57,858 bases of DNA, from positions 1 through 57,858 of IMG/VR virus record IMGVR_UViG_3300021197_001375; one strand, given 5' to 3'. Below the pieces are notes generated by a model. The model had not been told where the DNA came from. It searched no databases and was given only the letters and a program-made list of their open reading frames with translations. Below, one piece after another: positions 4,742-57,858 of this stretch (the first letter of the stretch is position 1; every line of letters starts with the position of its first letter). A program made the translations under genes and the position numbers. This stretch comes from a virus.

Positions 4742-5494
4742 CTATGGGTTCTTGGTCCCTGAGGCCTGTTGCTTGTAGTATTGTCCCACTCTACCTAGCC
4801 AAATCCACATAAAGTGTTGAAATTCCTTACCATGTGACACGTACCTTAGAACATCGCCACCTTTAACACTAATTAGAATCACTCCAGATTGTATATTCGT
4901 ATTATACACGTAATTGTGAGCCACAGCATATGCTGCGCACTGTATGAAATAATCGTCTATCCATTCACGCTTCTTGTATTTATTGCTTTGTTTAAAATCT
5001 ATGATAGACTCCCGGCCTTCATAGATTCCAGCAACGTCTGAGGCGCCCGCATACAATCCAGGGTACCAAAGGGGCATTTCCAACCCCCACACCTCTTCTA
5101 AAGGGCTGAAATGGCCTCTATCAATGATGTTTTGAGCCATGGTGCCTGCTTCCTGACCTAATTGTGATAGATCCATATGACCCTCACCTTTTATATATCC
5201 TTCTAGTATTCGGTGCATAATAGTACCTCTAGCGGCAGCATCATCACGTATTTTGTCTGCCTTAATTTCGCCTTCTCGTTGCCTCCATGCTGCCAGTTTT
5301 GCTTTACTTTCCTCAGACTTGGTTGCTCCTAATATAGTTGTAACACTTGGTAATTTTTCATCATTTATATCGTAGACCCGACCAGACTCACTATCGACTC
5401 GTTTAATAGTTTTATATTCAAACTTTGGTTTACCGTCCCAAATAGTTTTCTTTCCAATATTATGATATTCTTTTATATCTTCGTCATTCATCAT
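4742..5494 (-). CDS. RecB/Cas4-type PD-(D/E)XK exonuclease
   Basis: 250 residues. RecB-family nuclease motifs occur in order: HxxLE-like MHRILE (H94), GASDVAG (D153), IIDFKQS (D166-x-K168) and QCAAYA (Q185, Y189). Such phage exonucleases degrade host DNA or process ends for recombination. The start is the first of two ATGs and overlaps the endonuclease stop (ATGA), so the two genes are coupled. Likely role: DNA degradation or recombination next to the replication set; inferred. Confidence 0.82.
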   Translation of the reverse strand: MMNDEDIKEYHNIGKKTIWDGKPKFEYKTIKRVDSESGRVYDINDEKLPSVTTILGATKSEESKAKLAAWRQREGEIKADKIRDDAAARGTIMHRILEGYIKGEGHMDLSQLGQEAGTMAQNIIDRGHFSPLEEVWGLEMPLWYPGLYAGASDVAGIYEGRESIIDFKQSNKYKKREWIDDYFIQCAAYAVAHNYVYNTNIQSGVILISVKGGDVLRYVSHGKEFQHFMWIWLGRVGQYYKQQASGTKNP

Positions 5495-7519: not shown

Positions 7520-7558
7520 TTAGTATATCCTTTCTTATTAATATCTAAAGATATAGGA

Positions 7559-17628: not shown

Positions 17629-18399
17629 TTATACAATGTCTCCAGTATTTTTAGATGCTTCGTATTTTGGTTTTGCTGCACCTTTAGATACTGATTTCTG
17701 AAGTTGTTGTGCAACTTCATATACTTCAGCATCTTGTTTTTTACTGACATCAAGATTTCTAACTCTTGATGGTTTGTAGACATGCCAGCTTTTACTACCT
17801 GCTGTCTTACCCATAGTTTTTAAATTATAAACTGCTGAGTATGCAGCTGGATTAAAAGAACCCTCTGAATCTGAGAATCTAAGATTCTTAATCAGATTAT
17901 TAAGTTCTCTTGCTGGTGTAAGATTAGAAGATCTCATAGCCATTACTGCAGGTCTTGTCTCTCCATCTACTAACGCTAGTACATAGAAGTATGCAGTCTT
18001 TTCTACATAGTTACCATTTGGTAATCTATATCTTCCATTTCTTTCTTCAACAGCATCTGCTGGAATCTCTAAATGAGTTCCGACTGGAGCTGAAACACTA
18101 TCGCCTCTCTCCTGCCATTCAGGGTATCTAGTTTGTGAATGTGCAACAACCACATCTAGTCCCTTGTTTCCATCAATAAGTTGCGTGAAGCCTGCTGCAT
18201 ATATCATGCCAGGTTTAGCACCATCAACGTACTTTGGATCTCTCTCATTACATTCTGGTGAAAGTTGATGAAGAATTTTTAAGATCGGAGTTGATACATC
18301 GTCTGATCTAATTTCTTCAGTTCCTTTGCCACCATCTGCTCTAAGATTAATAGTTGCAAGTGATCCTGCACTATTTTTTTTTACTACTTCTTTATCCAT
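17629..18399 (-). CDS. Early protein, candidate ssDNA-binding protein
   Basis: 256 residues; GGAG ribosome site seven bases before ATG. Opens with NLRADGGKGTEEIRSDD, then a beta-rich body (LDVVVAHSQTRYPEWQERG, EKTAYFYVLALVDGE) and a basic C-terminal region. The position (before primase) and size are those of a phage SSB, and the body resembles proteins annotated that way, but no diagnostic motif or acidic tail is visible. Shares a 13-base leader motif with the next upstream gene. Confidence 0.45.
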   Translation of the reverse strand: MDKEVVKKNSAGSLATINLRADGGKGTEEIRSDDVSTPILKILHQLSPECNERDPKYVDGAKPGMIYAAGFTQLIDGNKGLDVVVAHSQTRYPEWQERGDSVSAPVGTHLEIPADAVEERNGRYRLPNGNYVEKTAYFYVLALVDGETRPAVMAMRSSNLTPARELNNLIKNLRFSDSEGSFNPAAYSAVYNLKTMGKTAGSKSWHVYKPSRVRNLDVSKKQDAEVYEVAQQLQKSVSKGAAKPKYEASKNTGDIV

Positions 18400-55825: not shown

Positions 55826-56761
55826 TTAATTTACACTTTGTTGCATTTGTTGTCTTGCAATAGCGATCTTTTGATCTCTAGTTAAAACCTCTTTATCTTC
55901 CAAAAGATTAGCCAGATTTTCTGGTGAATAAATTGAAAGTGCCATTGAACTACTTTCATTTAACATTGTTTCATTTAAAACAACTCCGACTTTATCTGCG
56001 AGTGCTTTTGCTTGGTCAAATGTTCTGTAAGATTTTAAACCTAATCTTACTTTTTGCATTTTGTCCTCAACATAATCATACATTTGTTGATGTTCTTTGA
56101 TTACATTGTCAGCACTAGAAACATACATCTTAAAAAAGTTTAATGTATTTTCATCAACTTTAAACTGCCTTGAATGACAATAATTACTTCCTATTGTCCA
56201 AAGTTTAAAATCATTTTCCCATTTATCTTTAGGATATTCTGTTCCTGTTGCATCATTCCTTGAATGATTAAAACCCAAAAATTTATTTACTGCTGTTTCA
56301 TCTGCATAATATTTTGGATTTCTTTTTGAGTAGTCATTATTAATAGATAAATTGAAATCAGGATTAAGACCTTTTGCTTTCATGTCATCACGATAATATG
56401 CTCTTGCAAAGTTTTTACCCATATTAAATCTTACATGAACTTCATCTTTGCTTTCATACTCTCTACCCTCATCATCAACTTTCATAATTGGTTTTTCAAC
56501 CCAAAAACAATTATCTTGATACAACTCGCCACCACTTCTATTGTATTTAGAAATCATTCTTCTAATTGTATCAATGTCCTCTTGGGGTTGATGAAACCTT
56601 ACAACTTTCTCAATCTGCTCTTTTGCCTTTTCACGCATAAGATCGTATTGTTCTTTTGCTTGTATCAATTTATCTTTTACTTTATCTTCGTAAAAAGATT
56701 GAAATTGATCTGCAACAACTTTACGTTTATCTGCGTTTAATGTTATTTTTTTAGTTTGCAT
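55826..56761 (-). CDS. Unknown protein, possibly early
   Basis: 311 residues, no recognised motif. Helical N-terminus (DQFQSFYEDKVKDKLIQAKE; RFHQPQEDIDTIRRMISK), a middle with VEKPIMKVDDEGREYESKDE and HSRNDATGTEYPKDKWENDF, and a charged helical end. Perfect ribosome site (AAAGGAG) behind the promoter at 56785-56812. Recurrent in marine phages from memory. Being the first gene of the leftward region, it may be early. Confidence 0.6.
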   Translation of the reverse strand: MQTKKITLNADKRKVVADQFQSFYEDKVKDKLIQAKEQYDLMREKAKEQIEKVVRFHQPQEDIDTIRRMISKYNRSGGELYQDNCFWVEKPIMKVDDEGREYESKDEVHVRFNMGKNFARAYYRDDMKAKGLNPDFNLSINNDYSKRNPKYYADETAVNKFLGFNHSRNDATGTEYPKDKWENDFKLWTIGSNYCHSRQFKVDENTLNFFKMYVSSADNVIKEHQQMYDYVEDKMQKVRLGLKSYRTFDQAKALADKVGVVLNETMLNESSSMALSIYSPENLANLLEDKEVLTRDQKIAIARQQMQQSVN

Positions 56762-56784
56762 ATTTCACTCCTTTATTTTGTCCC

Positions 56785-56812
56785 AATATATCCTATATAA
56801 AATATATGTCAA
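56785..56812 (-). promoter_or_regulatory. Leftward promoter of the 311-residue gene
   Basis: TTGACA (56812-56807), 16 bases, TATATT (56790-56785), with a TATCCTAT box at 56789-56796. Confidence 0.65.
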
Positions 56813-56851
56813 ATATTATTTTCGGCACAACCTATACGTGTATGGTCTAGT

Positions 56852-56866
56852 TTAGAATTATTCTAA
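56852..56866. promoter_or_regulatory. 15-bp palindrome between two promoters
   Basis: TTAGAAT-T-ATTCTAA, perfect seven-base arms; candidate operator. Confidence 0.4.
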
Positions 56867-56915
56867 TGTAGTTTTTTTATAATATATACTAACCACCATC
56901 CCCAGCCACCGTCCA

Positions 56916-56944
56916 AGTATATAGGATAAATTAGGATATGTCAA
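56916..56944 (-). promoter_or_regulatory. Second leftward promoter of the right-end region
   Basis: TTGACA (56944-56939), 17 bases, TATACT (56921-56916); ATAGGATA (56921-56928) abuts the -10 and TTAGGATA (56931-56938) follows. Confidence 0.7.
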
Positions 56945-56998
56945 TCCATTAGAGTGTCCACAATGGGTCTAATAAAAAAATATTTTTAAAATAAATAT

Positions 56999-57027
56999 TT
57001 GACTCCTAAGTTATCCTATGTTATAAA
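56999..57027 (+). promoter_or_regulatory. Rightward promoter of the 53-residue gene
   Basis: TTGACT (56999-57004), 17 bases, TATAAA (57022-57027); TATCCTAT at 57012-57019. The ATG is at 57033, at the expected start of transcription. Confidence 0.65.
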
Positions 57028-57032
57028 GCGCT

Positions 57033-57194
57033 ATGACTGATAAAAATAAAATAGATAAAATACACGACAAGTTAATTCTTCAGGCTAAGAAATTAGCATT
57101 AGTAGAATTACAAATTAAAATAAAAGAAGATATTGAGAAACTTGATACAGAATTAAATTGTATTGATTCCGATGAGGATGAAATACCATTTTAG
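57033..57194 (+). CDS. Small charged helical protein
   Basis: 53 residues: KIHDKLILQAKKLALVELQI, then KEDIEKLDTELNCIDSDEDE and IPF. A coiled helix with an acidic tail. No Shine-Dalgarno; ATG five bases after the -10 box, so it is probably a leaderless mRNA. Possible phage regulator by size and place only. Confidence 0.55.
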   Translation: MTDKNKIDKIHDKLILQAKKLALVELQIKIKEDIEKLDTELNCIDSDEDEIPF

Positions 57195-57202
57195 ATAATT
57201 AG

Positions 57203-57313
57203 ATGGGACAGCAAAAGTTTAAATGCTGGGGTTATGGACCACCTCTGAAATTGGGTGGAGAGATCAAAAAGTTCCAGTCCCCGAAGCCATCTTTTATCAG
57301 GCGGGGAACTTAG
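57203..57313 (+). CDS. Possible 36-residue protein
   Basis: FKCWGYGPPLKLGGEIKKFQ and PKPSFIRRGT look protein-like; starts 8 bases after the previous stop, without a ribosome site. The end lies in hairpin-forming DNA. Confidence 0.35.
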   Translation: MGQQKFKCWGYGPPLKLGGEIKKFQSPKPSFIRRGT

Positions 57314-57608
57314 AATTAAAGCTATGCCCCGCCTGATCCCAGATCCATTAGGTTATTACCGATAATGCGTGCCGGCGCCCTAATGGATCTGGGATCAGTT
57401 ATCCAAGACCCCGCTGGATACAGTTGGGGAAGAATGCATAGATAGATATGGATCTGGACTATGCCTGATCAAGATCAGCGGGCTAAGTCCGAAAGGGTGA
57501 AGTTTTGGGAACCCCTGTCCGAAAATCCACTTTAGTGTGGGTGCTGATCCCAGATCCTTGGTGATGCGGCTTCTTAAATCGTATGCGATCCAAGGATCTG
57601 GGATCAGC
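57262..57608. other. GATC-rich, hairpin-dense noncoding region
   Basis: 13 GATC sites in about 345 bases. Hairpin 1: 20-base perfect arms 57333-57352 and 57379-57398. Hairpin 2: 19-base perfect arms 57543-57561 and 57590-57608. Both share CTGATCCCAGATCC but differ in the inner part, with both arms changed together. Smaller hairpins: ATCAGGCGGGG/CCCCGCCTGAT (57296-57337) and CTGATC-AA-GATCAG. The base composition is much richer in GC than the rest. Candidate replication origin or structured RNA. Confidence 0.7.
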
Positions 57609-57618
57609 CCTGAGTGGA

Positions 57619-57673
57619 AAGCTTCAAGCGTCAAGCTTCAAGCGTCAAGCGTCAAGCTCAAGCCACAAGCTTG
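57619..57673. repeat. CAAGCNN heptamer array
   Basis: Eight units of seven bases (CAAGCGT, CAAGCTT, CAAGCCA) with one six-base unit. Ends in the TTGACA of the promoter. Related to the array at 5-80. Confidence 0.8.
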
Positions 57674-57699
57674 ACAGCTGGGCTGGGATATGATAGGAT
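57671..57699 (+). promoter_or_regulatory. Rightward promoter
   Basis: TTGACA (57671-57676), 17 bases, TAGGAT (57694-57699), within ATAGGATA at 57693-57700; AAAGGAG ribosome site before ATG 57721. Confidence 0.65.
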
Positions 57700-57720
57700 A
57701 AAATTATAAAGGAGAAATAT

Positions 57721-57855
57721 ATGATTAAAAAAAATAATGATCCATTTGGTTTTAACAAAGCCATTAATTGGGAAAAATTAGAAGATCCAAAAGTATTAAA
57801 AGAATTAAAAAAACTTTTTGATGAAGAGGAGAAAAAAGAAAATGAAAACAAGTGA
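57721..57855 (+). CDS. Small acidic-tailed protein
   Basis: 44 residues: KKNNDPFGFNKAINWEKLED then a charged helix (KVLKELKKLFDEEEKKEN). Strong AAAGGAG site. A further ATG at 57842 (MKTSEA), preceded by GAGGAG, runs off the window, so another rightward gene probably follows. Confidence 0.62.
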   Translation: MIKKNNDPFGFNKAINWEKLEDPKVLKELKKLFDEEEKKENENK

Positions 57856-57858
57856 AGC

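Follow-up and report, generated by a model that had tools for sequence, protein, structure and literature searches.

A modular structured RNA predicted at a fixed genomic position in pelagiphages

Relation to known phage RNAs

GOLLD is a phage-encoded RNA with a conserved 3′ part and a variable 5′ part (PMC12286853). The locus described here lies near the end of the IMG/VR record IMGVR_UViG_3300021197_001375, the whole 57,858-nucleotide stretch of which is called the window below. The RNA predicted from it resembles GOLLD and ROOL in being large, ornate and phage-encoded; it is known here from sequence alone. The similar size and ornament make a self-assembling GOLLD/ROOL-like RNA, with the variable hairpins forming part of an RNA cage, a serious rival reading, which we nevertheless regard as improbable: the GOLLD and ROOL covariance models gave no match at gathering score, either in the window or among the related loci scanned, and ARAGORN found no tRNA in the window, whereas GOLLD and ROOL are associated with tRNA genes. 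The mode of variation differs as well, the pelagiphage RNA varying by exchange of modules at a shared joint helix.

One end of this RNA, the 3′ one, is already known as Rfam family RF02976 (“Flavobacterium-1” RNA), and the remainder appears to be new. HTVC027P, a cultured phage of the ocean bacterium Candidatus Pelagibacter HTCC1062, carries an array in the intergenic region 17671-18218, which is annotated as empty; locus, orientation, promoter, joint hairpin and neighbours are the same as in the window. The modules of the HTVC027P array are different and include the Flavobacterium-1 domain, which forms its 3′ domain and matches RF02976 with 90 bits (gathering cut-off 58.9). The family scored above the cut-off in 10 of 49 viral contigs and had no match in the window at 58.9 bits. 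The Flavobacterium-1 RNA covers 121 nt only, and the modular chain of 5′ hairpins lies outside the Rfam family. No family matched the window in a scan with the Rfam models; the matches obtained with lax thresholds were chance microRNA-type matches to bare hairpins. The initial annotation of this DNA had proposed a “new” RNA, which is close to the mark: the window itself matches no Rfam family, although RF02976 is a 3′ module of relatives.

A search of the genome collection found the joint hairpin in one contig only (L239), a single-cell scaffold of Flavobacterium sp. SCGC AAA160-P02. The scaffold carries the same domain (104 bits) and the same array, and its TerS is 77% identical to that of the window; judged by these sequences, L239 is a pelagiphage contig. 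The name Flavobacterium-1 probably derives from a phage in or on the sorted single cell and is misleading. In another contig (L025) a Flavobacterium-1 domain is located near TerL (4905-5026, minus strand), at a distance from the CTGATCCC hairpin at 7551 and in the opposite orientation; two RNA loci of this kind may thus exist in some phages.

Organisation of the window locus

The window record is linear in IMG/VR and includes portal, primase, DNA polymerase, helicase and head genes. Its TerL shares 86.6% identity with the TerL of Pelagibacter phage HTVC027P and 70% with its counterpart in phage 023Pt_psg01. By this sequence relatedness the window is a pelagiphage, with the host assigned from HTVC027P. 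Two adjacent 2OG-Fe(II) oxygenase genes are located at 396-950 and 917-1522.

The initial annotation had pointed to an excess of GATC sites, to two long perfect inverted repeats and to a GC content above that of the surroundings, and all three observations hold. Thirteen GATC sites are present in 57262-57608 (347 bp), while dinucleotide shuffles gave 2.9 on average and 8 at most, reaching 13 in none of 2,000 cases; 6 is the most that any other 347-bp stretch of the window contains. Two sites in each of the four hairpin arms account for eight of the 13, and the cluster arises incidentally from the GATC-containing stem sequence of the hairpins. The inverted repeats are 57333-57352 with 57379-57398 (20 bp, 100% identity) and 57543-57561 with 57590-57608 (19 bp, 100% identity); exactly as claimed, CTGATCCCAGATCC is common to both perfect hairpins and the inner arms differ. 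GC content is 0.485 in 57195-57617 versus 0.25-0.29 in 56762-57194 and 57681-57858.

The non-coding structured feature is larger than first noted and covers about 57205-57617 (~410 nt, plus strand), with a promoter in front. Folded on the plus strand over 496 nt, the sequence has an energy of -210 kcal/mol and a z-score of -8.8 versus shuffled sequences. The array is the most structured stretch of the window: in a scan of 160-nt segments, the seven of lowest energy, and two of the three with the strongest z-score, fell in the array. The second strongest local RNA-structure signal (z about -8) is located at 17641-17800, inside or beside coding sequence.

All features from the array promoter to the end of the window that are described here lie on the plus strand. 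A sigma-70-like promoter read from the sequence (TTGACT-17-TATAAA, 56999-57027) leads into the array and is followed by a 53-codon ORF (MTDKNKIDKIHDK...IPF, 57033-57194), which occurs only in window-like arrays (L284 included) and whose start nearly coincides with the predicted transcript start. The chain of stem-loops opens with a 5′ helix GGGAC/GTCCC enclosing two hairpins (57205-57281; recognised by inspection and predicted pairing only) and continues with a helix GCGGGG...CCCCGC (57301-57332), a module also present in L284, L305 and 023Pt_psg01 (GCGGGGA form). This helix adjoins hairpin HP1 (57333-57398), an inverted repeat with the joint CTGATCCC/GGGATCAG and the insert ATTAGGTTATTACCGATAATGCGTGCCGGCGCCCTAAT, which occurs in other contigs. 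A linker module (57465-57542), near-invariant in 10 contigs with mostly unrelated flanks, separates HP1 from HP2 (57543-57608), an inverted repeat that has the joint of HP1 and a different insert, 34 nt of which are found in L191 at 97% identity. The array ends, as in many relatives, with 7-bp repeats AAGCTTC/AAGCGTC (57618-57670). Such repeats are also located at 49-77 of the window and between genes at many places in contigs L060, L062 and L044. A terminator search at the array found none; the ends of the transcript are therefore conjectural, and transcription may run on into gp34.

The gp35-like gene (311 aa, 55826-56761, minus strand) is the usual neighbour of the array, located upstream on the other strand in about 195 loci. 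The model of its product is confident (pLDDT 84) and had no match in PDB, giving no functional clue; PADLOC had no match among the neighbour genes tested. Downstream, a promoter conserved in HTVC027P and others (TTGACA-17-TAGGAT, 57671-57699) precedes a 44-aa ORF (57721-57855) in the position of HTVC027P gp34; this small ORF with its own conserved promoter is accompanied in relatives by a gene for a GP88-family protein (gp33).

In the relatives, the array promoter is near-consensus (TTGACAATAGGATAGTCAAGSATTATATT) and mostly precedes the first hairpin by about 110-150 nt. Promoters scoring at least 10.5 were found on the RNA strand of 110 out of 152 arrays, compared with 53 on the other strand and 14 in shuffles. 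The zone next to the array had been described as promoter-dense, which is only partly borne out: six promoter-like sites compare with an expected 4.5 ± 2.3, although several of them are strong and well placed. In L060 (5878-5907) and its relatives the array promoter TTGACAATAGGATAGTCAAG includes a palindrome CTTGAC...GTCAAG over the -35 box, resembling an operator.

Expression data place gp33 and gp34 of HTVC027P in a separate cluster, at 6-9 h after infection (PMC12753301). As the RNA-seq analysis in that study counted annotated genes only, the array was outside its counts, and our literature search found no report of non-coding RNA in these phages. Close to the array, HTVC027P gp30 (L240:3769-3945), an ArfA-like gene for ribosome rescue, is reported to be highly expressed both early and late (PMC12753301).

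The array could be a long structured 5′ leader controlling gp34 and the GP88-like gp33 in cis, since it is located directly upstream of them on the same strand and these two genes are expressed as a cluster of their own. We find this rather unlikely. A separate near-consensus promoter lies between the array and the gene in the window, in HTVC027P and in L060, an ORF precedes the array in window-like arrays, and module swapping as free as that described below would be unexpected for a leader.

Base pairing, polarity and module exchange

Chains of hairpins with the joint CTGATCCC...GGGATCAG occupy this position in hundreds of marine viral contigs. Scanning of viral contigs with CTGATCCCAGATCC gave at least 120 stretches, mostly AT-rich, with one to six hairpins each, and the hairpin abundance in IMG/VR is a lower bound. 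In all, the analysis covered 276 contigs with self-oriented hairpins. A relative of at least one window protein is encoded in 238 of the 249 contigs checked, and most of the others are short. To avoid selecting on the hairpin, loci were also retrieved by the gp35-like neighbour gene alone (query 55826-56761 of the window): a hairpin was present within 1.2 kb upstream in 58 of the 62 loci with enough upstream sequence, and in all 58 the RNA strand reads away from the gp35-like gene. The hairpin is absent from the stretches read of the more distant phages HTVC023P and HTVC033P. HTVC023P (L241) has other inverted repeats at 2350-2650, intergenic and upstream of the terminase small subunit gene, without the joint hairpin. 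A BLASTN search of 50,697 phage genomes with the window array gave no match even at an E-value of 10, as expected if the modules are shuffled. Contig L050 (1-1250) has two complete tandem units, each with promoter, hairpin chain and AAGC-type repeats, which suggests duplication of the whole RNA gene.

Both window hairpins carry the joint CTGATCCC...GGGATCAG, and the inner stem of this hairpin family covaries. In 58 non-redundant hairpins picked by the outer 8-mers alone, the covariation score was 0.421, compared with 0.116 ± 0.010 for shuffled and 0.05-0.08 for slid arms; 96.8% of the cells pair, 160 cells show double changes and eight of the nine inner pairs counted change on both sides. As the outer 8 bp of the joint served as the selection key, they are uninformative on pairing. 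Covariation was counted on ungapped arm alignments and not with a covariance model of our own, because reassortment of the modules leaves no single alignment that fits them over the full length. A second motif, in which 9-bp and 3-bp helices enclose the internal loop UCACACC/YGUCUU, scored 0.997 versus 0.317 in 27 sequences picked by the loop letters alone. A direct compensating change is seen in HP1, where the inner arms are ATTAGG/CCTAAT in the window and AGCAGG/CCTGCT in L122 around the same loop motif. The homologous region with compensating changes is therefore present in the relatives and strongly supports the phage RNA with kept pairing that was among the options of the initial annotation; the one-sided G-U bias and the fixed orientation described here and the upstream promoter are in line with it as well.

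Most joints have a T-T mismatch on one strand: U-U is found in 180 of the 208 non-redundant hairpins and A-U in 14. The window hairpins have A-U at this position, U-U being usual and not defining in the family. With hairpins oriented by the U-U mismatch alone, wobbles were 164 G-U versus 5 A-C, and non-redundant inserts gave 111 G-U versus 7 A-C (p=3e-25). Such a bias indicates that the functional molecule is RNA made from the plus strand of the window, as selection on a DNA cruciform would provide no reason for it. Both hairpin orientations occur in one of the 276 contigs; this contig (L209) possibly includes two facing arrays or a misassembly. Pairs of like inserts had the same orientation in 79 cases and were inverted in none. 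Twenty inserts that had appeared inverted were an artefact of ambiguous contig orientation and disappeared once each hairpin was oriented individually. Base pairing is thus under selection, on the RNA strand and with fixed polarity.

The modules were compared in 331 distinct hairpins from 214 loci. Among 143 pairs with the same insert, both flanks were alike in 2, one in 18 and neither in 123. Conversely, the insert was common to only 17 of the 825 pairs with a common upstream 40 nt and to 6 of the 322 pairs with a common downstream 40 nt. There were 46 insert clusters found in at least two contexts, of which 45 had several upstream partners and 45 several downstream ones. Exact duplicates were collapsed before these statistics, so vertical or short-range inheritance is undercounted. 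Loci with 98-100% identical neighbour genes do share arrays (these are mostly one contig fetched twice), and three locus pairs, two of them independent, with neighbour genes 94-95.4% identical share none. Inserts and linkers therefore recombine almost freely, and even close relatives differ in the version they carry.

The exchanged segments are about 25-110 nt long and non-coding, with well over a hundred kinds of inserts and many linkers, the linkers moving as well as the inserts. By sequence comparison, the window array itself is a mosaic whose 57301-57332 helix, HP1 insert, linker and part of the HP2 insert each recur elsewhere. About ten other contigs have the HP1 insert, identical or closely similar, between different flanks. 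GATCAG and CTGATCCC mark the exact ends of the linker, and in most of its ten contigs the modules to either side are unrelated. The HP1 insert motif GGTTAYTRYCGATAATGCG is also located inside hairpins with quite different outer stems (L234:1675-1695, L225, L230 and L233), and inserts may move beyond the CTGATCCC joint. The modules are thus reassorted while the genomic position next to one neighbour gene stays fixed.

Short conserved joints with exchangeable inserts, together with folded single strands that would fit attC-like sites, are what a site-specific recombination array would show, whether made of integron-like attC cassettes or of invertible segments, and any RNA would then be incidental. 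Like attC arrays, the pelagiphage array has folded hairpin sites with conserved ends, variable middles and cassette-like exchange. It differs from them in lacking coding cassettes and inversion and in the selection on RNA pairing: inverted pairs are absent against 79 in the same orientation, the G-U bias is one-sided, and the swapped segments are short and non-coding and include the linkers, all of which makes this reading very unlikely. A DNA-level element (a replication origin, as the initial annotation had considered, a packaging site, considered there too, or replication-fork hairpins) deserves still less credence: hairpins and divergent promoters are common at origins and the genes for the small and large terminase subunits flank the region in HTVC027P, but the GATC cluster is explained by the stem sequence, the G-U excess requires RNA, the GC skew changes sign only locally, within the last 358 bases of the linear contig, so that the scan cannot place an origin, and wholesale replacement between relatives is unexpected for origin or pac sequences recognised by conserved proteins.

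Proposed function and implications

Taking all this together, we are nearly certain that a phage-encoded, structured and modular non-coding RNA on the plus strand has its body in 57205-57617. The RNA would be read from a host-type promoter as a chain of stem-loops. Its constant part is a set of joint helices, above all CUGAUCCC(U-U mismatch)G.../...C GGGAUCAG, while inserts and linkers are exchangeable. Transcription may be expected early in infection, since the HTVC027P genes downstream, gp34 and gp33, are early-to-middle genes. Modules would be swapped during co-infection by recombination between the short identical joints. If the inserts are binding elements, replacing one of them would shift the specificity of the RNA towards the host, a defence system or a competing phage. 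The full reading, an early, trans-acting modular phage RNA whose binding specificity is altered by module exchange, appears to us quite likely; action in trans, taken by itself, is probable. An antisense mode of action was considered and rejected: exact matches between the array and other parts of the window are no longer than 13 nt, as in shuffled controls.

The purpose of the RNA is more speculative. Counter-defence or host takeover is our leading guess, a tentative one suggested by the hypervariability alone: replacement of modules at a constant place outpaces the divergence of the neighbour genes, as happens at specificity loci. Possibly, modules shuffled at conserved joints provide each lineage with its own set of binding elements directed against host defences or rival phages. 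Such a combinatorial RNA might, by analogy, be the equivalent, at the RNA level, of a variable locus for receptor binding or specificity, although we would not put this higher than a conjecture.

Published work describes this type of phage as abundant in the ocean and widely distributed there (PMC9599517, PMC11066056). Cells infected with HTVC027P lose ribosomal RNA (PMC11066056), which is one of several candidate phenotypes to set against this RNA. For these phages, the locus adds a predicted RNA gene at a fixed place in most contigs with the gp35-like gene, a place annotated as empty in HTVC027P. The orphan Rfam family RF02976 is reassigned to phages, and the array provides a clean case of RNA evolution by exchange of structural modules.
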